A stretch of 30,162 nucleotides of DNA from a virus. This document shows, one piece after another, positions 403 to 29,615 of this stretch. Below the pieces are notes generated by a model, which did no database searches, had not been told where the DNA came from, and saw nothing but the letters and a program-made list of their open reading frames with translations. The position numbers and the translations under genes were made by a program. Within the stretch, counting starts at the first letter, position 1. Every line of letters begins with the position of its first letter. The stretch lies in IMG/VR virus record IMGVR_UViG_3300027741_000192, positions 1 to 30,162 of that record. One strand, written 5' to 3'.

Positions 403-693
403 ATGCCAGGAATTTGTAGGGTGGAATTAGACCGACATATTGGTCATGCCAAGGCAAAAGTTCCTTATCACCAAACTCCTTATAAGACTGGTTCTGAAAA
501 TGTTTATGTAAATGGTAAACAAGCAGTTAGAATTGGTGATATTTGCGCTTGTAAAGATCCAGCACTTGAAGGAAGTGAAACTGTTTTTATAAATGGAATA
601 GGTGTTCATAGAAAAAATGATGCAACTGCTGGCCATGAAGGATGGGTGCCAAATAAAGCGGCTACTGGTTCAGAAAATGTATTTGCAGGTTAA
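403..693 (+). CDS. gp5.4: PAAR-domain spike-tip protein (gp5.4-like)
   Basis: A 96-residue PAAR-repeat protein. This family folds into a small cone that caps the central tail spike (gp5 in T4) and helps pierce the outer membrane. It starts MPGICRVELDRHIGHA and has two repeat-like halves: TGSENVYVNGKQAVRIGD (residues 29-46) and GSETVFINGIGVHRKND (57-73), with a third GSENVF at 89-94. PAAR proteins bind one zinc ion through His and Cys. Candidates here are His12, His15, His23, Cys48, Cys50 and His78. Length is typical. It lies 6 nt after the small basic gene and 1 nt before the next ATG, at the head of a baseplate and fibre block, which fits its role. Confidence 0.9.
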   Translation: MPGICRVELDRHIGHAKAKVPYHQTPYKTGSENVYVNGKQAVRIGDICACKDPALEGSETVFINGIGVHRKNDATAGHEGWVPNKAATGSENVFAG

Positions 694-963: not shown

Positions 964-3840
964 ATGACTATAACCTATCGAAATACCAAAGGAGCTGCTC
1001 TTACTTACAATGAGATGGACGAGAATTTTCGTGATCTAAGACAAGACACGACAATTGATAGAGTATTAGAGAATGGTAATACAACTACAAAAAGTTTAAA
1101 TTTAGGTTCTTTAAATGCAACTGCTATTACACTTAATGGACAACCTTTAGCAGGATTGGGTTATACAGGTTCAAAAGGAGATGTTGGTTATACAGGAAGT
1201 TTAGGTTACACAGGATCATTAGGTTATACAGGATCAGCTTCAACAGTTGTTGGTTACACAGGATCAAAAGGCGATCAAGGTCCTGCAGGAGGTTATACTG
1301 GATCACAAGGTGAAATTGGTTATACAGGTTCAGCATCTACTGTAGTTGGTTATACAGGAAGTTTAGGTTACACAGGATCACAAGGTGTAATCGGTTATAC
1401 AGGTTCTAAAGGCGATCAAGGCAACCAAGGTATACAAGGTTTTACAGGGTCAAAAGGCGATTTAGGTTATTCAGGTTCACAAGGCGTTACAGGTTATACA
1501 GGATCATTAGGAAATACAGGAACACAAGGCATACAAGGTAATATAGGATTTACAGGCTCTCAAGGTGATTTAGGTTACACAGGTAGTCAAGGTTATACAG
1601 GATCACAAGGCATAACAGGTTTCACAGGATCAAAAGGCGATCAAGGAAATATTGGTTATACAGGATCACAAGGTGTTATAGGATTTACAGGATCTTTAGG
1701 TTACACAGGTTCACAAGGCATACAAGGTTACACAGGTTCACAAGGCATACAAGGTTACACAGGTTCAAAAGGAGATATAGGATATACAGGATCGCAAGGT
1801 GTTGGTTATACTGGTTCACAAGGCAATATAGGATTTACAGGTTCACAAGGAATACAAGGCGAAAAAGGAGATATAGGATATACAGGATCAATAGGTGCTT
1901 CCGGAGACAAATATAATACAACATCACAAACTAGTTTAAATTTATCAACTTATTCTCTTAATGATACTATATCTTTAACTACCGTAACATTAAATTTAAG
2001 TTATTCTCCAAATCAAACTATTTTAATTACACAAACATCAACTCCTTCAAATAATATACATGCTAAAATTTTAACATACAATACTGGTACAGGACAATTA
2101 ACAGCAAATGTTACAAATATTACAGAAGCTCAAAATAATATTTCAAATTCTTGGACAATTAATTTAGATGGTGCTGTTGGCACTATAGGTTATACAGGAT
2201 CTAAAGGCGATCAAGGATACACAGGAAGTTTAGGTTACACAGGCTCAAAAGGAGATACTGGTTATATTGGTTCACAAGGAATTCAAGGAGACTTTGGTTA
2301 CTCCGGCTCTTTGGGTTATACAGGTTCTCGAGGTATTCAAGGTATACAAGGAAATATTGGTTATACAGGTTCACAAGGCGTAATTGGTTATACAGGATCA
2401 CAAGGTGTTATAGGATTTACAGGATCTTTAGGTTACACAGGTTCGCAAGGTTATTCAGGAAGTTTAGGTTACACAGGTTCACAAGGAGTCGGTTATACAG
2501 GTTCTTTAGGTTACACAGGTTCACAAGGAGTTGGTTATACAGGTTCTAAAGGTCCTGCAGGAGGTTATACAGGTTCGAAAGGAGATTCGGGAGACACATT
2601 CATTACTTTTTCTAATAATGAATTTACATTGGGAAGTTCAGGTTCTCAAACAATTATTATAGGTACTGGTTTAAGTTATACAACAGGACAAAATATAGTT
2701 ATTTCTTATGATCAAAATAATATTCAATATGGTGTAGTATCTTCATACAATTCAGATTATGGATTTTTTGTATTTGAAAAAATAGGATTTATAGGTTCAG
2801 GAACTTATGATAACTGGACAATTAACATAACAGGTCCTGTTGGCAATATTGGTTTTACAGGTTCACAAGGATATACAGGTTCTGCTGGAATTGGATATAC
2901 AGGTTCTGCATCATCAGTAATTGGTTATTCGGGAAGTTTAGGTTATACAGGTTCAAAAGGTTATACTGGTTCACAAGGTATTATTGGTTACACAGGATCA
3001 AAAGGTGATACAGGATCAACAGGTGCTGTGGGAAGTTTAGGTTATACAGGATCAATTGGTTATACAGGATCACAAGGTATTAACGGTTACACAGGATCGC
3101 AAGGAGATCAAGGACCTAGAGGAGGAACAGGATATACAGGAAGTTTAGGTTATACAGGTTCAAAAGGAGATACAGGTTTACAAGGTATTGGTTATACAGG
3201 TTCACAAGGTGCAACAGGTACTCAAGGAAGTATTGGTTATACAGGATCAATAGGTTATACAGGATCAACAGGCTATACAGGTTCTGCTTCAACAGTAATT
3301 GGTTATACAGGAAGTTTAGGTTATACAGGATCGCAAGGTGCTGGTTATACAGGTTCGAGAGGTGATACAGGATTTGTAGGTTCACAAGGTCCTGCTGGAG
3401 GTTATACAGGTTCAAAAGGCGATACAGGTTATACAGGTTCTGCCGGCATAGCAAGTGGATTACAATCAAGAACAACAGCAAGTGTTACTACAAGCAGTTT
3501 AGCAAATAATGCTGTAACTACTGTTGACATAACAGGTTCTAAATCTTATATGTTATTAAAAGTAACAACTGATGTTGCTTCATGGATTAGAATTTATACT
3601 GATGCTTCATCAAGAACGGCCGATGCTAGTAGAAGTCAATATACAGATCCAACACCTGGTTCTGGAGTAATTGCAGAGGTTATAACTTCAGGAAGTCAAA
3701 CAGTAATATTTACTCCTGCTGCTTTAGGTTATAATAATGAAAATCCTGTAACAACAACTATACCTATTAGAGTAACAAATTTAAGTGGTGGTACAACTAC
3801 AGTTACTGTAACATTGACATACATACAACTAGAGGCTTAA
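964..3840 (+). CDS. collagen-like tail fibre protein 1
   Basis: A 958-residue collagen-like fibre, probably an adsorption or whisker-like structure. Residues 1-65 form an N-terminal head (MTITYRNTKGAALTYNEMDE) of a type common in marine phage structural proteins, likely the virion attachment end. Three G-X-Y triplet blocks follow (about 66-315, 408-542 and 627-828), built from GYT-GSQ, GYT-GSK and GDQ triplets with almost no proline. Two globular modules interrupt them (about 316-407 and 543-626); each has a counterpart in the fibre at 25229-28885. Residues 830-958 are a beta-rich C-terminal domain (KSYMLLKVTTDVASWIRIYT, ending TVTLTYIQLEA) that I recall from cyanophage structural proteins. 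The S53 peptidase gene begins 1 nt downstream. Confidence 0.87.
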   Translation: MTITYRNTKGAALTYNEMDENFRDLRQDTTIDRVLENGNTTTKSLNLGSLNATAITLNGQPLAGLGYTGSKGDVGYTGSLGYTGSLGYTGSASTVVGYTGSKGDQGPAGGYTGSQGEIGYTGSASTVVGYTGSLGYTGSQGVIGYTGSKGDQGNQGIQGFTGSKGDLGYSGSQGVTGYTGSLGNTGTQGIQGNIGFTGSQGDLGYTGSQGYTGSQGITGFTGSKGDQGNIGYTGSQGVIGFTGSLGYTGSQGIQGYTGSQGIQGYTGSKGDIGYTGSQGVGYTGSQGNIGFTGSQGIQGEKGDIGYTGSIGASGDKYNTTSQTSLNLSTYSLNDTISLTTVTLNLSYSPNQTILITQTSTPSNNIHAKILTYNTGTGQLTANVTNITEAQNNISNSWTINLDGAVGTIGYTGSKGDQGYTGSLGYTGSKGDTGYIGSQGIQGDFGYSGSLGYTGSRGIQGIQGNIGYTGSQGVIGYTGSQGVIGFTGSLGYTGSQGYSGSLGYTGSQGVGYTGSLGYTGSQGVGYTGSKGPAGGYTGSKGDSGDTFITFSNNEFTLGSSGSQTIIIGTGLSYTTGQNIVISYDQNNIQYGVVSSYNSDYGFFVFEKIGFIGSGTYDNWTINITGPVGNIGFTGSQGYTGSAGIGYTGSASSVIGYSGSLGYTGSKGYTGSQGIIGYTGSKGDTGSTGAVGSLGYTGSIGYTGSQGINGYTGSQGDQGPRGGTGYTGSLGYTGSKGDTGLQGIGYTGSQGATGTQGSIGYTGSIGYTGSTGYTGSASTVIGYTGSLGYTGSQGAGYTGSRGDTGFVGSQGPAGGYTGSKGDTGYTGSAGIASGLQSRTTASVTTSSLANNAVTTVDITGSKSYMLLKVTTDVASWIRIYTDASSRTADASRSQYTDPTPGSGVIAEVITSGSQTVIFTPAALGYNNENPVTTTIPIRVTNLSGGTTTVTVTLTYIQLEA
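1159..3444 (+). repeat. collagen-type GYTGS triplet-coding repeat arrays (fibre 1)
   Basis: Degenerate 15-18 nt units of the form GGTTAYACAGGWTCW fill about 1159-1905, 2182-2585 and 2845-3444, separated by two non-repetitive modules. Synonymous codons vary between units, so the protein repeat is cleaner than the DNA repeat. Confidence 0.9.
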
Positions 3841-3841
3841 G

Positions 3842-5488
3842 ATGCCCACAACAACAAACGCTGATATTAATCAAACAATATTAGTTACTTTATATCTTAA
3901 AAGAGATTTGCATGAAAACGGCCAATCTTTATTAGAATACGTTAAAGGTATTCAGTCAAAAGAAAATTCTATTTTAACACATGAAGAATTTACATATCAG
4001 TTTGGTACAATAGAAGAAGAAATGAAATTAGTAAAAGATTATGTTACATCAAAAGGTTTAACTATAGAAGATGATTGTAGATTAAAATCAACTGTTAAAG
4101 TATCAGGAACAATAGGAACATTTAATAATATTTTTTCAATAACATTACAAACAATTGTTGATGAAGATAGAACTTATATAACACATGATGGTGATATTAC
4201 TATACCCACTGAAATATCTTCTGTAGTAGAAAATGTTTTAGGTTTAGATAATAAAATAGTAGTTGCAAGACCATCAGCAGTAAAATTTGTTGAAGAAGAA
4301 TATGTACCACCTGAAAATGTTCCTCCAGGGGTTTATATTGGTGCTGTTACTCCTGTTGAAGTTGCAAATGCTTATAATTTACCCGCTGGTGATGGTTATG
4401 GTGGTTGTATTGGAATTTATGAATTAACTTATTCAGGTTATCAAACAGGTTGGAATCAAACTGATGTTAATAATTCTTTCAGTAGAATAGGAATTATTCC
4501 ACCTACTATTGTAACGATTAATACTGACGGCGTAACAACATTAACTACAAGTGATGCTGAAAGTATGTTGGACATTTATTGTGCTGGTGCGGTTGCGCCT
4601 AGAGCAAAGATTGCTTATTATAATGCTCCTAATTCTTTTCAAGGAGTTATAGATAATTTTTTAACAGTAGCAGCAGATACTACAAATAGTCCTAGTGTTA
4701 TTAGTTGCAGTTGGGCTTTTGGAGATTATTTGCCAGGATCTTGGTTTGGTTCAGCTATGGCCGCTTGTTCTGCTTTAGGTATTACTGTATTAGTAGCATC
4801 AGGAGATGCAGGTGCTCAAAATTTTAATATGTATTCTCCTTACGGAATAACTACAGATCCTAGTGCTTGTATTTGTGGAGGAACAACTATCTATCTTAGT
4901 AATGATAAACAATCTTATTCGCAAGAAATAGGTTGGAGTGGTTCAGGTGGAGGAATTAGTAATGTTAATACTTTACCTGATTATCAAATAGGTTGTAAAT
5001 ACACAACTAAAACTTTAGGAGGAATAACAGGAACTCCAACACAATTACCTAAGAGAGGTGTTCCTGACATAAGTGCTCCTTCAGATCCAGGTACAGGTTT
5101 TCAATTTTATGTAAATGGTTTTCTTTCTCAATATGGAGGAACAAGTGCAGCTGCACCATGGCTAGCAGGAATGATAGTAAGATTTAATGTACTTATAGGT
5201 AAAAGAATGGGTCATGTAAATGAATTTTTTTATGCCAATCCTTCAACATATAGAGACACTGCTTTAGGAGATAACGTTAGAGGATATGCAAATGGTTATA
5301 CTACTACAGCAGATAGTTGGGATGCCGTTACCGGCTTAGGAAGTCCTTACGGACCAGGAATTTACACACTATTAAAGAAAGAAATGAAAGTTACATATCC
5401 TAAAGTAAATTATGGTTATAGATCCTCAAATAAACAAAGATATCCAAGATATACTACTGGTGTATCAGGCAGAACTAATAATTCATAA
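3842..5488 (+). CDS. S53 family serine-carboxyl peptidase (sedolisin/kumamolisin type) with propeptide
   Basis: A 548-residue endopeptidase of the sedolisin family. Residues about 1-150 match the pro-kumamolisin activation domain (LTHEEFTYQFG at 45-55, VKVSGTIGTFNNIF at 85-98). The catalytic domain follows from about 160 (GVYIGAVTPVEVANAYNLP). All active-site elements are present: Glu240 and Asp244 in DAESMLDIYCAGAVAP (the E-x3-D spacing of kumamolisin), oxyanion Asp322 in VASGDAGA, and Ser435 in YGGTSAAAPW. A C-terminal calcium site is likely around Asp472 and Asp494 (WDAVTGLGSP). Residues 515-548 are a basic Tyr/Arg-rich tail. No signal peptide is seen. AGAGG at 3831-3835 is a ribosome binding site. 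Family members self-cleave their propeptide and are usually acid-active; kumamolisin-As degrades collagen. The position after a collagen-like fibre suggests fibre processing or a virion-borne enzyme, which is inference. Confidence 0.93.
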   Translation: MPTTTNADINQTILVTLYLKRDLHENGQSLLEYVKGIQSKENSILTHEEFTYQFGTIEEEMKLVKDYVTSKGLTIEDDCRLKSTVKVSGTIGTFNNIFSITLQTIVDEDRTYITHDGDITIPTEISSVVENVLGLDNKIVVARPSAVKFVEEEYVPPENVPPGVYIGAVTPVEVANAYNLPAGDGYGGCIGIYELTYSGYQTGWNQTDVNNSFSRIGIIPPTIVTINTDGVTTLTTSDAESMLDIYCAGAVAPRAKIAYYNAPNSFQGVIDNFLTVAADTTNSPSVISCSWAFGDYLPGSWFGSAMAACSALGITVLVASGDAGAQNFNMYSPYGITTDPSACICGGTTIYLSNDKQSYSQEIGWSGSGGGISNVNTLPDYQIGCKYTTKTLGGITGTPTQLPKRGVPDISAPSDPGTGFQFYVNGFLSQYGGTSAAAPWLAGMIVRFNVLIGKRMGHVNEFFYANPSTYRDTALGDNVRGYANGYTTTADSWDAVTGLGSPYGPGIYTLLKKEMKVTYPKVNYGYRSSNKQRYPRYTTGVSGRTNNS

Positions 5489-5505: not shown

Positions 5506-5513
5506 TATAAATA
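5506..5513 (+). promoter_or_regulatory. T4-type late promoter box TATAAATA before gp25
   Basis: Exact late-promoter box in the 34-nt gap between the peptidase and gp25. It is 9 nt from the gp25 ATG, so a start near 5519 would leave a leader of about 4 nt with no room for a Shine-Dalgarno sequence. Confidence 0.75.
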
Positions 5514-19502: not shown

Positions 19503-19844
19503 ATGGCAGCTATAGCAAATTTAACAATAGACGCAGGTGCAACTTTCTCCAGTGATGTTGATGTTTTAGCTGATGATGGTAGTGTATTCAGTTTAGTAGG
19601 ATATACGGCTGAAGCAAAAATGACTAAAGGATATTCCGAAACATATCCTAGAGTTTATTTTGATATTACTGTTTATGAAGCTGATGGTATCGTAAGTATA
19701 AGTTTAGATCCTGCTGACACCATTCAACTAGAAGAAGGCCGTTGGGTTTATGATGTTCAAATAAAAGAAACAGCAACTGGCGATGTAACACGTGTTGTTG
19801 AAGGAATCATAACCGTTTATCCTTCTGTTTCAGGTATTGATTAA
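19503..19844 (+). CDS. small beta-rich virion protein
   Basis: A 113-residue protein with an alternating pattern suggesting an immunoglobulin-like or similar beta fold: ANLTIDAGATFSSDVDVLAD, then FSLVGYTAEAKMTKGY, EGRWVYDVQIKETATGDVTR and VVEGIITVYPSVSGID. I recall similar short proteins, starting with a xFTIDQGxxF motif and ending xRVVEGxVTVxPxV, beside fibre genes in cyanophages. Probably a fibre-associated or baseplate decoration protein. It is the last plus-strand gene before the minus-strand glycosyltransferase pair and its stop codon overlaps the convergent stop codon (TTAA at 19841-19844). Confidence 0.72.
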   Translation: MAAIANLTIDAGATFSSDVDVLADDGSVFSLVGYTAEAKMTKGYSETYPRVYFDITVYEADGIVSISLDPADTIQLEEGRWVYDVQIKETATGDVTRVVEGIITVYPSVSGID

Positions 19845-21055
19845 GATTCGTATTTAAATACTGCTTTATTTTTACCGGTTTTAATTTCTTTAAAACCGTT
19901 TTCTATTAAGTACTCACCTATTTTTTTAATATCATACGTAGTAACATCATCAAATATAAAAACACTATCATTCGCTTTTCTAAGCATAAAAAATTCAACT
20001 TCTTCCATAACACTAATTGTATCGTGTGGCCCGTCAAAATGCACCAAATCGTATTCGGTTATTAATTTTTTAACTTCATTATATACAGGATAACCATCTC
20101 CGTATCTTTTGAAAAATTCTGTATCTTCTAAACAAACAAGATGAAATTCAGGATAATCTTTTGTAAAGTTTAATAGTGCTTCTTTTTTCATATCGTTTGT
20201 GTAATCACATTTAGTTTGTGGTGCTTCATCTGAATAAGCATAAACAATATTTCCATAAGGGTCAATACCTAAATGATTTAGTTTTACTTGTGGATGATAT
20301 TTTCTAAATGAATCTATAATAATCTTACTTCCCATTCCAAGTCTTACGCCAATTTCAACCGTAGCTCCTGTAGGATTTTTTAATAATCTAACCGCTTCTT
20401 CTAAAGATTCATATTCATGGCTATCGCCATTAAATGTTGCAGGTTTTTCTTTATTAATAACATCTGTCATTCTAAATGTATGAGCACCAATATGATCGCA
20501 AAGTATTGTGGTATCTGCAAATATTTTAAAACCTTTCATTTTTGCTTTTCTACAAAAATCTACATCTTCTGATATTGTATTTCTATGATCTAATGCTGAA
20601 TGATAAACATATTGAGGATAACCTATTGTTCTAAAAACTTCCGATTTAATTAAAACACAACCCATACCACTTGCTTCTATTTCTAAGAAAGGAACGTTTT
20701 TAATCTTTTCATAAGGTATATTTGAACAACCACCAAATTGATTTTTTTCATATACTTCTATAGTATGTCTATCGTGGTGTCTTTGTCTATATAAACCTGA
20801 TACCATATCTACATTATGATTTAAAAGTTTTTTAAGAGTATCTGGTGCAAATACAATATCACTATCTACAGAAAACAAATAATCATAGTGAGTTGCCCAA
20901 TGAGCAATAAGATTTCTTATTTGATCTACTTGGTAACCATAAAAGAATTGAAATTGAGTTTTATAACCTTCAGGAACTTCAAGATTATATATTGCTCTCA
21001 TTGTTTCTGGTTCAATATATTTGTTTGTAGGTATTCCTATTAATATTGTTTTCAT
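19841..21055 (-). CDS. glycosyltransferase (GT-A) and class I methyltransferase fusion
   Basis: A 404-residue two-domain enzyme. Residues 1-200 form a GT2-like GT-A domain: ILIGIPTNKYIEPETM at the start, the metal and nucleotide-sugar binding Asp64-Ser65-Asp66 in FSVDSDIVF, and a SEDVDFCRKAKMKGFKIFAD acceptor-side motif (162-181). Residues about 215-404 look like a Methyltransf_24-type Rossmann domain: VEIGVRLGMGS (233-243) as motif I, GIDPYG (263-268), HFDGPHD (339-345) and FIFDDV (367-371). It would add a sugar and methylate a sugar or peptide; substrates are not visible. It overlaps the upstream gene by 4 nt (ATGA), so the two are translated together. The stop codon is convergent with the plus-strand neighbour. 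Confidence 0.85.
   Translation of the reverse strand: MKTILIGIPTNKYIEPETMRAIYNLEVPEGYKTQFQFFYGYQVDQIRNLIAHWATHYDYLFSVDSDIVFAPDTLKKLLNHNVDMVSGLYRQRHHDRHTIEVYEKNQFGGCSNIPYEKIKNVPFLEIEASGMGCVLIKSEVFRTIGYPQYVYHSALDHRNTISEDVDFCRKAKMKGFKIFADTTILCDHIGAHTFRMTDVINKEKPATFNGDSHEYESLEEAVRLLKNPTGATVEIGVRLGMGSKIIIDSFRKYHPQVKLNHLGIDPYGNIVYAYSDEAPQTKCDYTNDMKKEALLNFTKDYPEFHLVCLEDTEFFKRYGDGYPVYNEVKKLITEYDLVHFDGPHDTISVMEEVEFFMLRKANDSVFIFDDVTTYDIKKIGEYLIENGFKEIKTGKNKAVFKYES
19876..19904 (+). terminator. intrinsic terminator for the plus-strand fibre operon
   Basis: CGGTTTTAA (19876-19884), loop TTTCT, TTAAAACCG (19890-19898), then TTTTCT. The 9-bp stem is perfect and is followed by a short U-run on the plus strand, 32 nt after the last plus-strand stop codon. 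It lies inside the 3' coding end of the minus-strand gene and would shield that operon from read-through. Confidence 0.6.
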
Positions 21056-23082
21056 TGTTTTAATATCCTATTTGCATTTTTTGTTTGTTCGGCCGAATTT
21101 ACTTTATAATCATTTAATGGACTTATATCATTATAATTGTAAACTATATCTTGTACTACTTTAATTTTGTTTGGATCTGCTTTTTCTATTACTGTATAAA
21201 ATATAGAACCATCACCGCCCGCTTTGTACCAATTTCCTTTTTCATCTTTAAAATTTCCATCATTTACATCATTCAATAGATATGCCTTAAATGTTCTTAA
21301 ATGAGTATAAGGCATGTTCCAATTAAATTTATATTGTCTATATTTCTTTTCTTTTTTAGTTTCTTGTAAATAATTTTGAGATATCAAAGGTATTTTATCT
21401 ACCATTGAATAACATGAACCATAAGTAAATTCAGTTGTACCATCATAAAGATTATTGTAAAAATGAAATATTTGATTGTCGTTTACTAGAGAATCGTCTC
21501 CGTCTAAGAACATTACAATATTGTCCATTTGAGAATATTTAATTATAGCTTCTATTTGATTTCTCACTGCACCTTTATTTTCTGTATTTTTAATTACGAT
21601 TACTTTATCACTTTCATATCTTTTAGCAATATCATAAGTATTGTCTGTAGAACAATCATCAATAACAATCATTAAGTAATTATCATAATCTTGTGTAATA
21701 ACAGACTTAATACATGTTTCAATATATTGACTGGCATTATATGCAGGTGTAACTATAATCATTTTTTGTTGAGTGTTTCTAGGTATATAATTTTCTTCAT
21801 AATTTTCAAATCTTCTACCAAACACAGTTTTAACTCTTGCATTAATATAACTTACTTGTTTATATTCTTCTTTTGAAAGGTATGCGCCTAATTTTTTATA
21901 GATATGTTGTTTCCATTGTAATGCAACAGAATCCCAACCTACAATATCTTTTATAATATTACAAGCATACATTTTTTGTTGATGTAGATATCTATCAACA
22001 TTTGCTCTTAAAACCATATTTACAAATTTATCTTCTTGTTGCTTTTTGTCGATAAATCTAAAAAGACTATTTGGTTCAATTGCATAATCCATTAAATAAC
22101 AGGCCTGTTCAACGGCCGTTTCTTCTAATGCACCAAAACGAGTTGTAATTAAAGGAGTATTGTAAGCAATAGATTCCAACGTTGAAATACCAAATGTTTC
22201 AGGAAATGCACCAGGAAATAACATGAAACTTGCTTTGGCCATTAATTCTGCTATTTCTGATTGTTTAATAATACCAGTAAACTCTACATCTAGTTTTTTA
22301 TATTTTTCATCAGCAACCAATTCTCTCCATTTTTTTTCTTGTTCATCGGGAGCAGCATTTTCTCTAAATCTATAATATCCACCAATTACTTTTAATTTAG
22401 CTTGAGGTATATTTTGTTTAATTCTTTCCCACATATTCTCAACCAGAGGCAACATGCCTTTTGTAACAGAAGCATTGTAAACATATAGATAAGGATCTTT
22501 TTTTCTTATATCTACTTCGTTTTTATAATATATAATACCGTTACGTGTCATAAAAACTTTTTTCTTTAATACTTCAAAGTTTCTTTTTCTTCCATGATCA
22601 CAATTTGTAACATAAGATGTATGAAAATCTGAAAGTGTAAAGATTTCATCTAAATCACCATGCACTAACATATCTTCTAATATATGATCACCATACATTG
22701 AAAATGTATCGTGCATCCACATGGCTTTTAGTTTAGCATTAGCTTTTATTTTAGAATATCTTTGAGGTTTAAAACGTTCAAATTGACTATATAACTGTTC
22801 GGGTACAAAAGGTATTACTGTTCTGGAAGATATAACAACATCAAAATTAAAATCGTTTTTATAATCTAATATAGTATGATCAATATATTGAACATTATCA
22901 AATATTCCTTCTTTAGATTCTTTATCTATGCAGTTATTAAATACTGTTACTTTGAAATTCTTTTTAGCTAGTTCTTTTGCAAGTAAAATAACGGCTGATT
23001 CTGATCCACCTAGACCTCTTTTATTTAAGGTATCACCATCATAGGTCAATCCAATAATGTCAATAATCGCTATAGAAATCAT
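21052..23082 (-). CDS. bifunctional glycosyltransferase: GT4 (GT-B) plus GT2 (GT-A)
   Basis: A 676-residue fusion of two glycosyltransferases. The N-terminal domain (about 1-400) is GT4-like: GLGGSESAVILLAKELAKK (23-41), VTRNG-type region around 178-182, and the E-x7-E pair Glu295/Glu303 in FPETFGISTLESIAYNTP. The C-terminal domain (about 440-676) is GT2-like: IIVTPAYNASQYIETCIKS (442-460), VIDDCSTDNTYDIA (473-486) and the DGDD metal site at 527-530. Two different folds imply two sequential sugar transfers. No membrane segment or signal peptide is seen, so it acts in the cytoplasm. A strong sigma70-type promoter and a late box lie upstream. Capsular, LPS-modifying or virion-protein glycosylation are all possible; the setting among fibre genes favours the last, by inference. 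Confidence 0.9.
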   Translation of the reverse strand: MISIAIIDIIGLTYDGDTLNKRGLGGSESAVILLAKELAKKNFKVTVFNNCIDKESKEGIFDNVQYIDHTILDYKNDFNFDVVISSRTVIPFVPEQLYSQFERFKPQRYSKIKANAKLKAMWMHDTFSMYGDHILEDMLVHGDLDEIFTLSDFHTSYVTNCDHGRKRNFEVLKKKVFMTRNGIIYYKNEVDIRKKDPYLYVYNASVTKGMLPLVENMWERIKQNIPQAKLKVIGGYYRFRENAAPDEQEKKWRELVADEKYKKLDVEFTGIIKQSEIAELMAKASFMLFPGAFPETFGISTLESIAYNTPLITTRFGALEETAVEQACYLMDYAIEPNSLFRFIDKKQQEDKFVNMVLRANVDRYLHQQKMYACNIIKDIVGWDSVALQWKQHIYKKLGAYLSKEEYKQVSYINARVKTVFGRRFENYEENYIPRNTQQKMIIVTPAYNASQYIETCIKSVITQDYDNYLMIVIDDCSTDNTYDIAKRYESDKVIVIKNTENKGAVRNQIEAIIKYSQMDNIVMFLDGDDSLVNDNQIFHFYNNLYDGTTEFTYGSCYSMVDKIPLISQNYLQETKKEKKYRQYKFNWNMPYTHLRTFKAYLLNDVNDGNFKDEKGNWYKAGGDGSIFYTVIEKADPNKIKVVQDIVYNYNDISPLNDYKVNSAEQTKNANRILKQ

Positions 23083-23110: not shown

Positions 23111-23122
23111 TATTTATAAATA
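23111..23122. promoter_or_regulatory. palindromic bidirectional T4-type late promoter
   Basis: TATTTATAAATA is its own reverse complement, so it presents TATAAATA on the plus strand (23115-23122) and on the minus strand (23111-23118). It lies between the divergent glycosyltransferase and fibre genes and could drive both. Predicted leaders are about 52 nt (plus) and about 23 nt (minus). Confidence 0.65.
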
Positions 23123-25228: not shown

Positions 25229-28200
25229 ATGGCGGCACTCAATTTTCCTACAGATAATCTAGTTACTAATGTAACTACATATACATTAGGTAATCGTACA
25301 TGGTTATGGAACGGTACTGCTTGGCAGTTAGTTTCTAATCAATCAGGTTATGCTGGTTCTGTTGGTTACACTGGTTCTAAAGGTTCTCAAGGTTATACTG
25401 GTTCTAAAGGTTCAACAGGTTCAACAGGTTATGATGGTTCAGTAGGTTACACAGGCTCTCAAGGTGAAACAGGTTACACAGGTTCTAAAGGTATTCAAGG
25501 TTATACTGGCTCTCAAGGTGAAACAGGTTACGATGGTTCTGTTGGTTACACCGGCTCTCAAGGTTACACAGGTTCTAAAGGTGTAATTGGTTACACAGGT
25601 TCAAAAGGTGAAAATGGTTACGATGGTTCACAAGGTATTCAAGGTTACACAGGTTCAAAAGGTTCAACTGGTTACGATGGTTCAATTGGTTATACTGGTT
25701 CAAGAGGATATAATGGTTCAGTAGGTTACACAGGTTCAAAAGGAGAAACCGGTTTAGGATTTAGAATTGCTAAAATTTATCCTTCTGTTGCCGCATTAAC
25801 TGCTGATACTTCTCCAACAGGAATTGTTTCTGGAGAATTTGCTATCATAGATACAGGTGATGTAGAAAATCCTGATGATGCAAAATTATATTTATGGAAT
25901 GGTTCAGCATATTCATTTATTTCAGATTTATCTGGTGCTGCTGGTATTCATGGTTACGATGGTTCAGTAGGTTACACAGGTTCAAAAGGTGTTCAAGGTT
26001 ATGATGGTTCAAAAGGAGAAATCGGTTACACAGGTTCAAAAGGTGAAAATGGTTATGATGGTTCAAAAGGAGAAATCGGTTACACAGGTTCTAAAGGTGT
26101 AATTGGTTACACAGGTTCAAAAGGTGAAAATGGTTATGATGGTTCAAAAGGTGAAAATGGTTACGATGGTTCTCAAGGTATTCAAGGTTATACTGGTTCA
26201 CAAGGTGAAATTGGTTATACCGGCTCTAAAGGTTATACAGGCTCTCAAGGTTATTTTGGTTCACAAGGTTACACAGGCAGCCAAGGTATTGATGGTTACA
26301 CTGGTTCTAAAGGAGAAATTGGTTATTCAGGTTCTAAAGGTATTCAAGGTTATGATGGTTCAAAAGGCGAAATTGGTTATACAGGTTCTAAAGGTATTCA
26401 AGGTTATGCTGGTTCAAAAGGTGAAAATGGTTACGATGGTTCTGTAGGTTATACTGGTTCAAAAGGTGAAAATGGTTACGATGGTTCACAAGGTATTCAA
26501 GGTTACACAGGTTCTCAAGGTGAAATTGGTTACACAGGTTCTAAAGGTGTAATTGGTTATACAGGTTCAAAAGGTGAACAGGGTTATAATGGTTCTAAAG
26601 GAGAAATTGGTTACTCAGGTTCACAAGGTTACGTAGGTTCACAAGGTTACGATGGTTCTAAAGGTGCTGATGGAGACAGGTATCATACAACATCTATAAC
26701 AACTTTAAATTTATCAACTTATGCTTTAACTAATACTATATCTTTAACAACTGTTGATAAAGGTTTAGATTACTCAGCACAACAAACAATTTTAATTGCT
26801 TCAACAGCAACTCCAACAAATCACATTCACGCAACTGTATTAACTTACAATGATGTTAGTGGAGCTTTAACTGCTACAGTTACAGATATTACTAATGCTG
26901 CTAACAGTTCTGAAAGTTCATGGGAAATAAATTTAGATGGTGCTGTAGGTATTCAAGGTTACACAGGTTCAAAAGGTGTTCAAGGTTATGATGGTTCAAA
27001 AGGAGAAATCGGTTACACAGGTTCAAAAGGTATTCAAGGTTACACAGGTTCAAAAGGTGTTCAAGGTTATGATGGTTCTAAAGGAGAAATAGGTTATTCA
27101 GGTTCTCAAGGCGATATAGGTTACACAGGTTCTAAAGGTGTAATTGGTTATACAGGTTCTCAAGGTGAAACAGGTTACGATGGTTCTGTTGGTTACACCG
27201 GCTCTCAAGGAAATACAGGTTACGATGGTTCACAAGGTATTCAAGGTTACACAGGTTCTAAAGGAGATATTGGTTATAATGGTTCACAAGGATATACAGG
27301 TTCACAAGGTTATTTTGGTTCAGTAGGTTATACTGGTTCAAAAGGAGAAATTGGTTACACAGGTTCAAAAGGTGAACAAGGTTATGATGGTTCTAAAGGA
27401 GAAATTGGTTATTCAGGTTCAAAAGGTATTCAAGGTTATACTGGTTCAAAAGGAGAAACAGGTTATGATGGTTCTGTTGGTTACACAGGTTCTCAAGGAG
27501 ATACAGGTTACGATGGTTCAGTAGGTTACACAGGTTCAAAAGGAGAAATTGGTTACACAGGTTCTAAAGGTGTTATCGGTTATACAGGTTCTCAAGGTTA
27601 TGACGGTTCTAAAGGTGAAACTGGTTACGATGGTTCAGTAGGTTATACTGGTTCTAAAGGTGTTATCGGTTACACAGGTTCTAAAGGTGAAGCTGGTAGA
27701 GATGGTGATGTTTATCATACAACTTCTTCAAGTTCATTTACAATCGCAAATTCTGGTTCAGAAACAATTACTGTTGCTAGTGGATTAGATTATACAGTTG
27801 GTCAAGACATTGTTCTTGCTAATGACCAAGATCATTTACAATATGCAAACGTAACTTCATATAACCCTGTAAATGGCCAATTAGTATTTGTAAAAACAAG
27901 TTCGAAAGGTTCAGGAACATTTAATTCTTGGATTGTTAACTTAGATGGTGCCGTAGGTGCTTTAGGTTACACAGGTTCTAAAGGAGAAACCGGTTATAAT
28001 GGTTCTAAAGGTGAAAATGGTTACGATGGTTCAGTAGGTTACACCGGTTCTAAAGGTATTCAAGGTTACACAGGCTCTAAAGGCGAAACTGGTTACGATG
28101 GTTCAGTAGGTTATACAGGTTCTAAAGGTTCTACAGGTTATGATGGTTCTGTTGGTTACACAGGTTCACAAGGCGAAATTGGTTATACAGGTTCTAAAGG

Positions 28201-28885
28201 TACAACTGGTTACACCGGTTCTAAAGGCGAAACTGGTTACGATGGTTCTTATGGTGAAACAGGTTACACAGGTTCTAAAGGTACAACTGGTTATAATGGT
28301 TCTCAAGGTTATACTGGAAGTCAAGGTGCGTTAAATATAACTTTAGCAAGTACACCTCCAGGTTCACCAAACGTAGGAGATATCTGGATTGATTCAAATA
28401 CAGGCATTCAATACTTCTGGTCATTTGATACAGATTCATATCAATGGGTAGAATATTCAAATCAAGGTGTTGCAGGTATACAAGGGTACACAGGTTCTCA
28501 AGGTTACACAGGAAGTTTTTCAGGTACTGTTTCAGCTGCAACACTTTCGACAGCAACAACAGGAATGGGTTACATGGGATTGCCTCAAAATTCTCAATCA
28601 TCAGCTTATACACTTGTAATAGGTGATGCTGGTAAACACATATATGTAACAACATCAGCTACAGTTACAATACCTGCGAATGGTACTGTTGCTTATCCTA
28701 TAGGAACTGTTATTAATTTAATTGCTGCTACAGGAGTAACAATTACTGTTGCAATTACAACTGATACATTATATCTTGGTGGTTCGGGAACTACTGGTTC
28801 AAGAACTGTTGCGGCTTTTGGTATGGCAACTTTAGTTAAAATAGATTCTACTTCTTGGATTATTGGTGGTACGGGAGTAGCTTAA
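25229..28885 (+). CDS. collagen-like tail fibre protein 3
   Basis: A 1218-residue fibre, the longest of the three. The head (MAALNFPTDNLVTNVTTYTL, then GNRTWLWNGTAWQLVS) is of a type frequent in phage structural proteins. Collagen blocks use GYDGS as well as GYTGS, with GEI, GEN, GVI and GIQ triplets. Four globular modules interrupt them: about 176-239 (YPSVAALTADTSPTGIVSGE), 481-572 and 826-909 (counterparts of the two modules in the fibre at 964-3840), and 1034-1080 (TPPGSPNVGDIWIDSNTGIQ, shared with fibre 2). The C-terminus (about 1090-1218; QSSAYTLVIGDAGKHIYVTT, ending WIIGGTGVA) is a beta-rich tip seen on many phage fibres. It lies 1 nt before the LamG-like gene, its likely partner. Confidence 0.87.
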   Translation: MAALNFPTDNLVTNVTTYTLGNRTWLWNGTAWQLVSNQSGYAGSVGYTGSKGSQGYTGSKGSTGSTGYDGSVGYTGSQGETGYTGSKGIQGYTGSQGETGYDGSVGYTGSQGYTGSKGVIGYTGSKGENGYDGSQGIQGYTGSKGSTGYDGSIGYTGSRGYNGSVGYTGSKGETGLGFRIAKIYPSVAALTADTSPTGIVSGEFAIIDTGDVENPDDAKLYLWNGSAYSFISDLSGAAGIHGYDGSVGYTGSKGVQGYDGSKGEIGYTGSKGENGYDGSKGEIGYTGSKGVIGYTGSKGENGYDGSKGENGYDGSQGIQGYTGSQGEIGYTGSKGYTGSQGYFGSQGYTGSQGIDGYTGSKGEIGYSGSKGIQGYDGSKGEIGYTGSKGIQGYAGSKGENGYDGSVGYTGSKGENGYDGSQGIQGYTGSQGEIGYTGSKGVIGYTGSKGEQGYNGSKGEIGYSGSQGYVGSQGYDGSKGADGDRYHTTSITTLNLSTYALTNTISLTTVDKGLDYSAQQTILIASTATPTNHIHATVLTYNDVSGALTATVTDITNAANSSESSWEINLDGAVGIQGYTGSKGVQGYDGSKGEIGYTGSKGIQGYTGSKGVQGYDGSKGEIGYSGSQGDIGYTGSKGVIGYTGSQGETGYDGSVGYTGSQGNTGYDGSQGIQGYTGSKGDIGYNGSQGYTGSQGYFGSVGYTGSKGEIGYTGSKGEQGYDGSKGEIGYSGSKGIQGYTGSKGETGYDGSVGYTGSQGDTGYDGSVGYTGSKGEIGYTGSKGVIGYTGSQGYDGSKGETGYDGSVGYTGSKGVIGYTGSKGEAGRDGDVYHTTSSSSFTIANSGSETITVASGLDYTVGQDIVLANDQDHLQYANVTSYNPVNGQLVFVKTSSKGSGTFNSWIVNLDGAVGALGYTGSKGETGYNGSKGENGYDGSVGYTGSKGIQGYTGSKGETGYDGSVGYTGSKGSTGYDGSVGYTGSQGEIGYTGSKGTTGYTGSKGETGYDGSYGETGYTGSKGTTGYNGSQGYTGSQGALNITLASTPPGSPNVGDIWIDSNTGIQYFWSFDTDSYQWVEYSNQGVAGIQGYTGSQGYTGSFSGTVSAATLSTATTGMGYMGLPQNSQSSAYTLVIGDAGKHIYVTTSATVTIPANGTVAYPIGTVINLIAATGVTITVAITTDTLYLGGSGTTGSRTVAAFGMATLVKIDSTSWIIGGTGVA
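25970..26044 (+). repeat. 75-bp exact direct repeat, copy 1 (fibre 3)
   Basis: Identical over 75 bp to 26957-27031, 987 bp downstream (329 codons, in frame). Recombination between the copies would delete a collagen block plus the module at 481-572 without breaking the frame. Confidence 0.88.
26957..27031 (+). repeat. 75-bp exact direct repeat, copy 2 (fibre 3)
   Basis: Second copy of the repeat at 25970-26044. Part of the same unit recurs again from about 27040, so this stretch is locally amplified. Confidence 0.88.
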
Positions 28886-28886
28886 A

Positions 28887-29615
28887 ATGGCTCCAATAAT
28901 TTTTAAACAAACAATCACAACACCTTCAATAGTTTCTTCTGGTTTAATATTAAATTTAGATGCGGGAAATGTTTCCAGTTATTCTGGTTCAGGAACTGCG
29001 TGGAATGATTTAAGTGGCAATGGAAATCATGGTACATTAAATTCTAATCAATATCACTTTCCTGTAGCATATAGTTCTTCTCAAGGTGGTTATTTTACTT
29101 TTGACGGTCCTACTTATAATCAAAATTTTTCAATTAATTCTGCTGGAAGTTTTAATTATGGTGTTGGAGATTTTGCTATAGAAATATGGGCATATCCAAC
29201 TACTGCGGCTGTGAATGCCTATAATCCTACTATTTTTACAACTAAAGGAAACGGCGACTGGTACGGTCAGTTGCGTTTACAATATGGAATATTGTTAATA
29301 ACTGGCGATGTTGGTAATTGGATAAATTTTTCATCTTCTATTCAGTTAAATACTTGGCAACAAATAGTAATAAGTAGAGTTAGTGGAGTTGTTACTGTTT
29401 ATAAAAATACTACAAGTATTGGTACAAAAACGGTTGGAAATGCAATAGGAGCTGATGACAATAGACCTGCTTTATGTATTTCAGATTCTTTGCCTAATGG
29501 TAGGGAACATATGTCAGGAAGAATTAGTATTTTCAGAATTTATAAAAATAAAGGACTTACTTCAACAGAAGTTACTCAAAACTTTAATGCAGTTAAATCA
29601 AGATATGGATTGTAG
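28887..29615 (+). CDS. LamG/concanavalin-like lectin protein, probable receptor-binding or fibre-tip protein
   Basis: A 242-residue protein made of one jelly-roll lectin-like domain. The N-terminal signature SGLILNLDAGNVSSYSGSGT followed by WNDLSGNGNHG (residues about 18-49) is typical of LamG-like domains in phage and bacterial surface proteins. FAIEIWAYPT (about 97-106), WQQIVISRVSGVVTVYKN (about 152-169) and a final GRISIFRIYKNKGLTSTEVT (about 211-230) complete the fold. There is no collagen repeat and no signal peptide. It begins 1 nt after the fibre 3 stop codon, so it probably caps fibre 3 or another fibre and binds a surface glycan. Ligand unknown. Confidence 0.85.
   Translation: MAPIIFKQTITTPSIVSSGLILNLDAGNVSSYSGSGTAWNDLSGNGNHGTLNSNQYHFPVAYSSSQGGYFTFDGPTYNQNFSINSAGSFNYGVGDFAIEIWAYPTTAAVNAYNPTIFTTKGNGDWYGQLRLQYGILLITGDVGNWINFSSSIQLNTWQQIVISRVSGVVTVYKNTTSIGTKTVGNAIGADDNRPALCISDSLPNGREHMSGRISIFRIYKNKGLTSTEVTQNFNAVKSRYGL

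Follow-up and report, generated by a model that had tools for sequence, protein, structure and literature searches.

Tailspike depolymerases clear cell-surface polysaccharide enzymatically during adsorption, and phages are well known to use such spike enzymes; little has been documented about proteolytic tip modules. A separate protein mounted on a fibre is described for T2/S16-type phages, in which gp38 sits on the C-terminal tip of the gp37 long tail fibre (PMC12892980). Proteases of clan SB enter the picture from two further directions, namely the S8 proteases annotated in records of Kyanoviridae cyanophages (S-CREM1 UYA57622.1, S-WAM2, S-RSM4) and the kumamolisins of MEROPS family S53.

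The locus considered here lies in a 30,162-base linear virus record, the whole of which is referred to as the window, and it resembles each of these systems in part. An S53 peptidase gene directly follows a tail fibre gene, and the geometry proposed for the two products is that of the gp37-gp38 tip pair, a likeness of position in which the S53 member is known from genes; gp38, a receptor-binding protein rich in glycine (PGII), is not an enzyme and has no sequence relation to S53. The proposed logic of enzymatic surface clearing at adsorption is shared with tailspike depolymerases, but these degrade polysaccharide and belong to the spike polypeptide itself, whereas the S53 protein is a separate protease paired with a fibre. 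The cyanophage S8 proteases stand directly behind the same fibre tip domain, end in the same tail motif and have the same clan SB fold; they differ from the window enzyme in their S8 catalytic domain and in their N-terminal region. With kumamolisin and pro-kumamolisin the window protein shares a near full-length alignment, the prodomain, the catalytic triad, the oxyanion Asp, the GTSxxxP motif and the calcium-site Asp. The window protein differs from kumamolisin in having no signal peptide, a place in a fibre operon and an extra C-terminal tail; the phage S53 proteins form a clade of their own, and in some of them the prodomain is missing.

The gene (3842..5488, plus strand) starts with ATG and encodes a sedolisin/kumamolisin-type peptidase of 548 aa. 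The initial annotation read it as a complete S53 enzyme with its propeptide and all catalytic residues, and looked to Pfam profiles and structure prediction for confirmation; both bear this reading out. The pro-kumamolisin activation domain (Pro-kuma_activ, PF09286) matches aa 6-137 at 2.2e-15, Peptidase_S8 matches weakly at 1.4e-5, and phmmer aligns pro-kumamolisin 1t1e over nearly the full length, aa 10-507, at 3e-65. Among PDB entries, Foldseek matches an AlphaFold2 model (pLDDT 76, pTM 0.81) best to pro-kumamolisin 1t1e (E 1e-35, TM 0.73). Residues E240, D244, D322 and S435 align with the kumamolisin catalytic residues, forming the Ser-Glu-Asp triad and oxyanion Asp, and are invariant across 22 aligned phage S53 relatives; W291 likewise sits at its stated position. 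The enzyme thus carries the S53 set Glu-Asp-Ser rather than the Asp-His-Ser domain of S8, and its sequence is that of a peptidase, not of a glycine-rich PGII receptor-binding domain of the gp38 type. D472 and D494, the likely side-chain ligands of a calcium site, are also invariant in this alignment (n=22), so the site that had been proposed appears intact. Comparison with four relatives 88-94% identical gave dN/dS values of 0.17-0.26, similarly low across prodomain, catalytic domain and tail and about 0.2 in the catalytic domain. The gene encodes a genuine, undamaged enzyme that purifying selection maintains, as the annotation had held in calling it no relic.

The layout of the protein follows that of its cellular counterparts up to the C-terminus. 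The N-terminus (MPTTTNADINQTILVTLYLKRD) shows on inspection no signal peptide, in agreement with the earlier reading. A prodomain of aa 1-143 (3842..4270), predicted by AlphaFold2 as a well-formed separate domain, is followed by a putative activation linker of aa 144-166 (4271..4339), modelled with low confidence or as disordered (pLDDT below 50), where autoprocessing would be expected; the alignment with mature kumamolisin chains begins at aa 168. The catalytic domain, delimited by alignment, invariance and Foldseek comparison, spans aa ~168-510 (4343..5371), with the codons of E240 at 4559-4561, D244 at 4571-4573, D322 at 4805-4807 and S435 at 5144-5146. Behind it lies a conserved C-terminal tail of aa 518-548 (5393..5485), the proposed docking tail, which includes the shared motif NYGYRSSNKQRYPR (5408-5449); all of these features are on the plus strand. 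A subclade of phage S53 proteins (L062, L068, L094, L103, L117 and L119) dispenses with the prodomain; these proteins, of 407-425 aa, retain the catalytic residues, and their context of tip and tail is unchanged.

Immediately upstream is a tail fibre of 958 aa (964..3840, plus strand) with a collagen shaft (Pfam Collagen 9.3e-66; PHROG tail fibre families) and a C-terminal tip domain of ~125 aa (3448..3837, plus strand). The tip is predicted to be a compact beta sandwich (AF2 pLDDT 85), had no significant fold match in the PDB (best 1.7e-3), and is C-terminal in 102 of the 102 ORFs that carry it. Searches seeded with the window S53 and a 44% relative, blind to the tip and covering contigs of up to 223 kb, found a fibre with this domain ending 1-3 nt before the S53 start in 18 of the 20 distinct loci for which upstream sequence is available. 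The shafts of these fibres vary: the window lineage has collagen, L009 and L010 have head-fibre repeats of the phi29 type (PF11133 in L010), and other types occur elsewhere; what S53-linked fibres have in common is their last ~125 residues, which also recur in 193 IMG/VR loci. The two exceptions are L034, where the tail is present and a recognisable tip absent, and L008, which lacks the tip and where other adhesin-like domains accompany S53. In L008 (7971-17276) about 270 residues are inserted into the calcium-site loop of the S53 protein, which ends in a cadherin-like region, and the next gene encodes a 2234-aa cadherin/Ig-repeat protein. Judged by gene order, the conserved partner of S53 is the fibre tip domain, neither collagen nor gp25.

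The window has a T4-like tail module, in the order PAAR, collagen fibre, S53, gp25, gp6, baseplate wedge protein, gp8, DUF4815, fibre chaperone and two more collagen fibres. A PAAR-motif spike-tip protein (403..693, plus strand; PF05488 1.2e-14) is the first gene of a probable fibre operon, an order kept in L003, L004 and L007. In L007 (2714-3766, PF03480 3.9e-27) and L004 (2795-3847) a gene for a TRAP-transporter DctP-type solute-binding protein, possibly an auxiliary metabolic gene, lies upstream of PAAR, fibre and S53. The fibre-S53-gp25 order and spacing recur in six close IMG/VR contigs, as far as each reaches. Both spacings given by the initial annotation stand, the 1 nt between fibre and protease being seen again in five close relatives and the 34 nt between protease and gp25 in six, but the functional link to gp25 does not. 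Outside the window lineage gp25 does not come after S53. Among cultured phages the nearest gp25 matches (50-55%) come from Kyanoviridae of Pelagibacter and Methylophilales, in which unrelated cargo rather than fibre or S53 directly precedes gp25. A T4-late-promoter-like box, TATAAATA (5506..5513, plus strand), stands between S53 and gp25, and a partnership with gp25 was rejected on these grounds.

Such boxes occur at 149, 5506, 10384, 23115, 25185 and 29980 on the plus strand and at 23111 on the minus strand. All seven are intergenic, most of them shortly before structural genes. Shuffling of the intergenic DNA gives an expectation of 0.75 for the plus strand against the six observed, although the number over the whole window is at chance level. 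The fibre-S53 junction, TAA-G-ATG, has neither such a box nor an intergenic gap, and a putative Shine-Dalgarno-like AGAGG for S53 (3831..3835, plus strand) falls within the last codons of the fibre gene. With a candidate promoter before gp25 and a one-base junction bearing AGAGG on the other side, S53 would therefore be expressed with the fibre and not with gp25. Elsewhere in the module, the third collagen fibre (25229-28885) is followed after 1 nt by a LamG/ConA-type lectin gene (28887-29615), a lectin in the protease's place, and two glycosyltransferase/methyltransferase genes (19841-23082, minus strand) possibly serve glycosylation of fibres or of the host surface.

The position behind the tip is not reserved for S53. 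A tip-seeded search, blind to proteases, gave 193 loci, of which 80 were kept; combined with cultured cyanophages and the S53-seeded loci, these yielded 73 non-redundant next genes. A clan SB protease follows the tip in 60 of them (39 S8 subtilases and 21 S53), an adhesin-like family in 11, and something that is neither in 2, with gaps mostly of -1 to +7 nt. Cultured or single-cell cyanophage records account for 15 classified slots, 10 of them with S8; Pfam confirmed the S8 assignment in five reference cyanophages, and several slot genes carry the record annotation 'subtilisin-like serine protease'. The adhesin-like occupants form the 'NNGNTGW' family of 600-930 aa, mostly ending in ARTT (L077, L080, L085 and others). 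Many tip-linked S8 proteins (L038, L039, L076, L108, L116) have a plastocyanin-like extra C-terminal module (GTYYYICQFHSGM) behind the tail motif. An apparent fusion of tip and S8 in S-SCSM1 was judged spurious because the S8 model includes fibre-like C-terminal extensions. By this census, the window S53 holds a protease slot that S8 subtilases fill more often.

S53 and S8 slot-holders share the tail R-P-x-x-G-x-x-[YFW]-P-R, found at the C-terminal end or, where extra domains come after, directly behind the catalytic domain. Its loose form is present in 48 of 52 complete slot proteases and its strict form, within the last 45 aa, in 35 of 52. None of the 11 adhesin-like slot-holders and none of 82 complete cellular S53 proteins has it, and a comparison set of 387 ORFs, each 150 aa or longer, gave two matches, both to S53 proteins outside the tip-based list, leaving 0 of 385. 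With an HMM built from S53 tails alone, 14 of the 32 C-termini of phage S8 proteins outscored every one of 1600 shuffles. The window copy is degenerate, RSSNKQRYPR; it is canonical in relatives, its outer arginines, R527 and R536, are invariant in the 22 aligned phage S53 proteins, and it is counted here among the tail-bearing forms. AlphaFold2 predicts the tail to be disordered in isolation, which would suit a docking peptide. A place behind a tip does not require the tail, since the 11 adhesin-like occupants do without it.

The histories of protease and tip do not coincide. A genome-contig scan for cellular S53 with prodomain patterns found no S53 relatives, and one with catalytic patterns found relatives in Acidobacteria, Acetobacteraceae, Chloroflexi and others. 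In a tree of 23 phage S53 and 45 cellular homologues, relatives being 24-33% identical, the phage proteins form one clade (support 100/99); since the cellular homologues were chosen by similarity, cellular relatives nearer than those sampled may exist. The tips of S53 fibres are not one clade, a single clade being rejected (AU p 0.005), and the window tips nest among S8-type tips. Mapped onto the tip tree, which has 132 columns and is partly resolved, the S53/S8 label changes four times, three of the changes being forced by well-supported branches. Because phage S53 is monophyletic and the tips are not, proteases have been exchanged between tips; the most economical interpretation is an exchange of catalytic units while the tip on one side and the tail on the other stayed conserved.

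On balance it is somewhat probable that the window gene encodes a virion protease linked to the fibre tip, docked by its tail and acting on host surface proteins, the location at the tip being deduced from the genes. The S53 zymogen would be translated immediately behind the tip-bearing fibre (964-3840), and its disordered C-terminal tail (YGYRSSNKQRYPR in the window, RPxxGxx[YFW]PR generally) would dock it non-covalently to or beside the tip. The prodomain would hold the enzyme inactive in the cytoplasm until autoprocessing in the linker, aa 144-166, removed it once assembly or release had taken place. The protease might then, on the free virion, trim or remove proteins of the host surface or surrounding matrix, so that the fibre reaches its receptor. 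The slot would be modular, with S53 and S8 catalytic units exchanged between the upstream tip and the downstream tail. Zymogen control cannot be universal, given the prodomain-less subclade. That subclade counts against the model, as do the tail-less adhesin-like occupants, L034 and L008. So does the enzyme type, for kumamolisin-type enzymes are acid-active and natural waters are near neutral. The annotation's suggestion of a virion or assembly role gains support from the conserved tip pairing, gp25 adjacency, its other pointer, being incidental.

The main rival, itself unlikely, is a fibre-maturation protease that cleaves the neighbouring fibre or its own tail in the infected cell or during assembly and may then leave the virion, much as T4 gp38 leaves after its chaperone action. 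The strict 1-nt pairing with the fibre, the prodomains of most of the enzymes and the disorder of the tail would all suit such a role. Against it, the fibre is otherwise variable, with no conserved cleavage site seen beyond the tip; two catalytic families in one slot fit a single fixed substrate site less well; and the protease can be replaced by adhesin-like proteins. A tip-mounted tool is favoured over a maturation enzyme because of the adhesin-like occupant, the two protease families and the strict tip pairing. Less probable still is a protease of lysis or host takeover that lies in the tail module by happenstance: a free protease is plausible cargo, but such a reading leaves unexplained why one particular domain is paired with it across unrelated shafts and two protease families, and why these share a tail.

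The initial annotation took the neighbouring collagen fibres as candidate substrates, and a collagenase directed at collagen-like fibres, of this phage or of a competing one, would suit both the collagen-like window fibre and the kumamolisins as closest solved enzymes. The idea was dropped because non-collagen shafts precede S53 in L009, L010 and others, the tip domain being the conserved feature, and the chance that it is right is now very slight. Equally improbable is a catalytically idle adhesin, a protease fold reused for receptor binding in a slot that adhesin-like proteins can occupy, in view of catalytic residues invariant in 22 S53 homologues and the low dN/dS of the catalytic domain.

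Two S53 queries run by tblastn against INPHARED recovered no phage S53. Neither PHROGs nor NCBIfam includes a family for phage S53, and the best S53-like matches in BFVD were giant-virus proteins, the phage matches being weaker subtilases. A search of open-licence literature found no published description of the pairing of fibre tip and protease, S53 or S8, in phage or cyanophage. Sedolisins stand directly behind a fibre tip in many uncultured phages, and the results suggest a hitherto undescribed fibre-tip-linked protease family used at host encounter. A broader proposal is put forward more tentatively, that widespread and exchangeable clan SB proteases, with S53 and S8 interchangeable, are held on fibre tips by a common docking tail and combine adhesion with proteolysis of the host surface in a manner previously undescribed.

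The tail offers a defined candidate docking motif, and the pairing would account for several of the 'subtilisin-like' annotations in cultured cyanophages. If the proposal is true, the pairing of tip and tail with swapped protease families would show how T4-like aquatic phages handle protein layers on cyanobacteria and other hosts.
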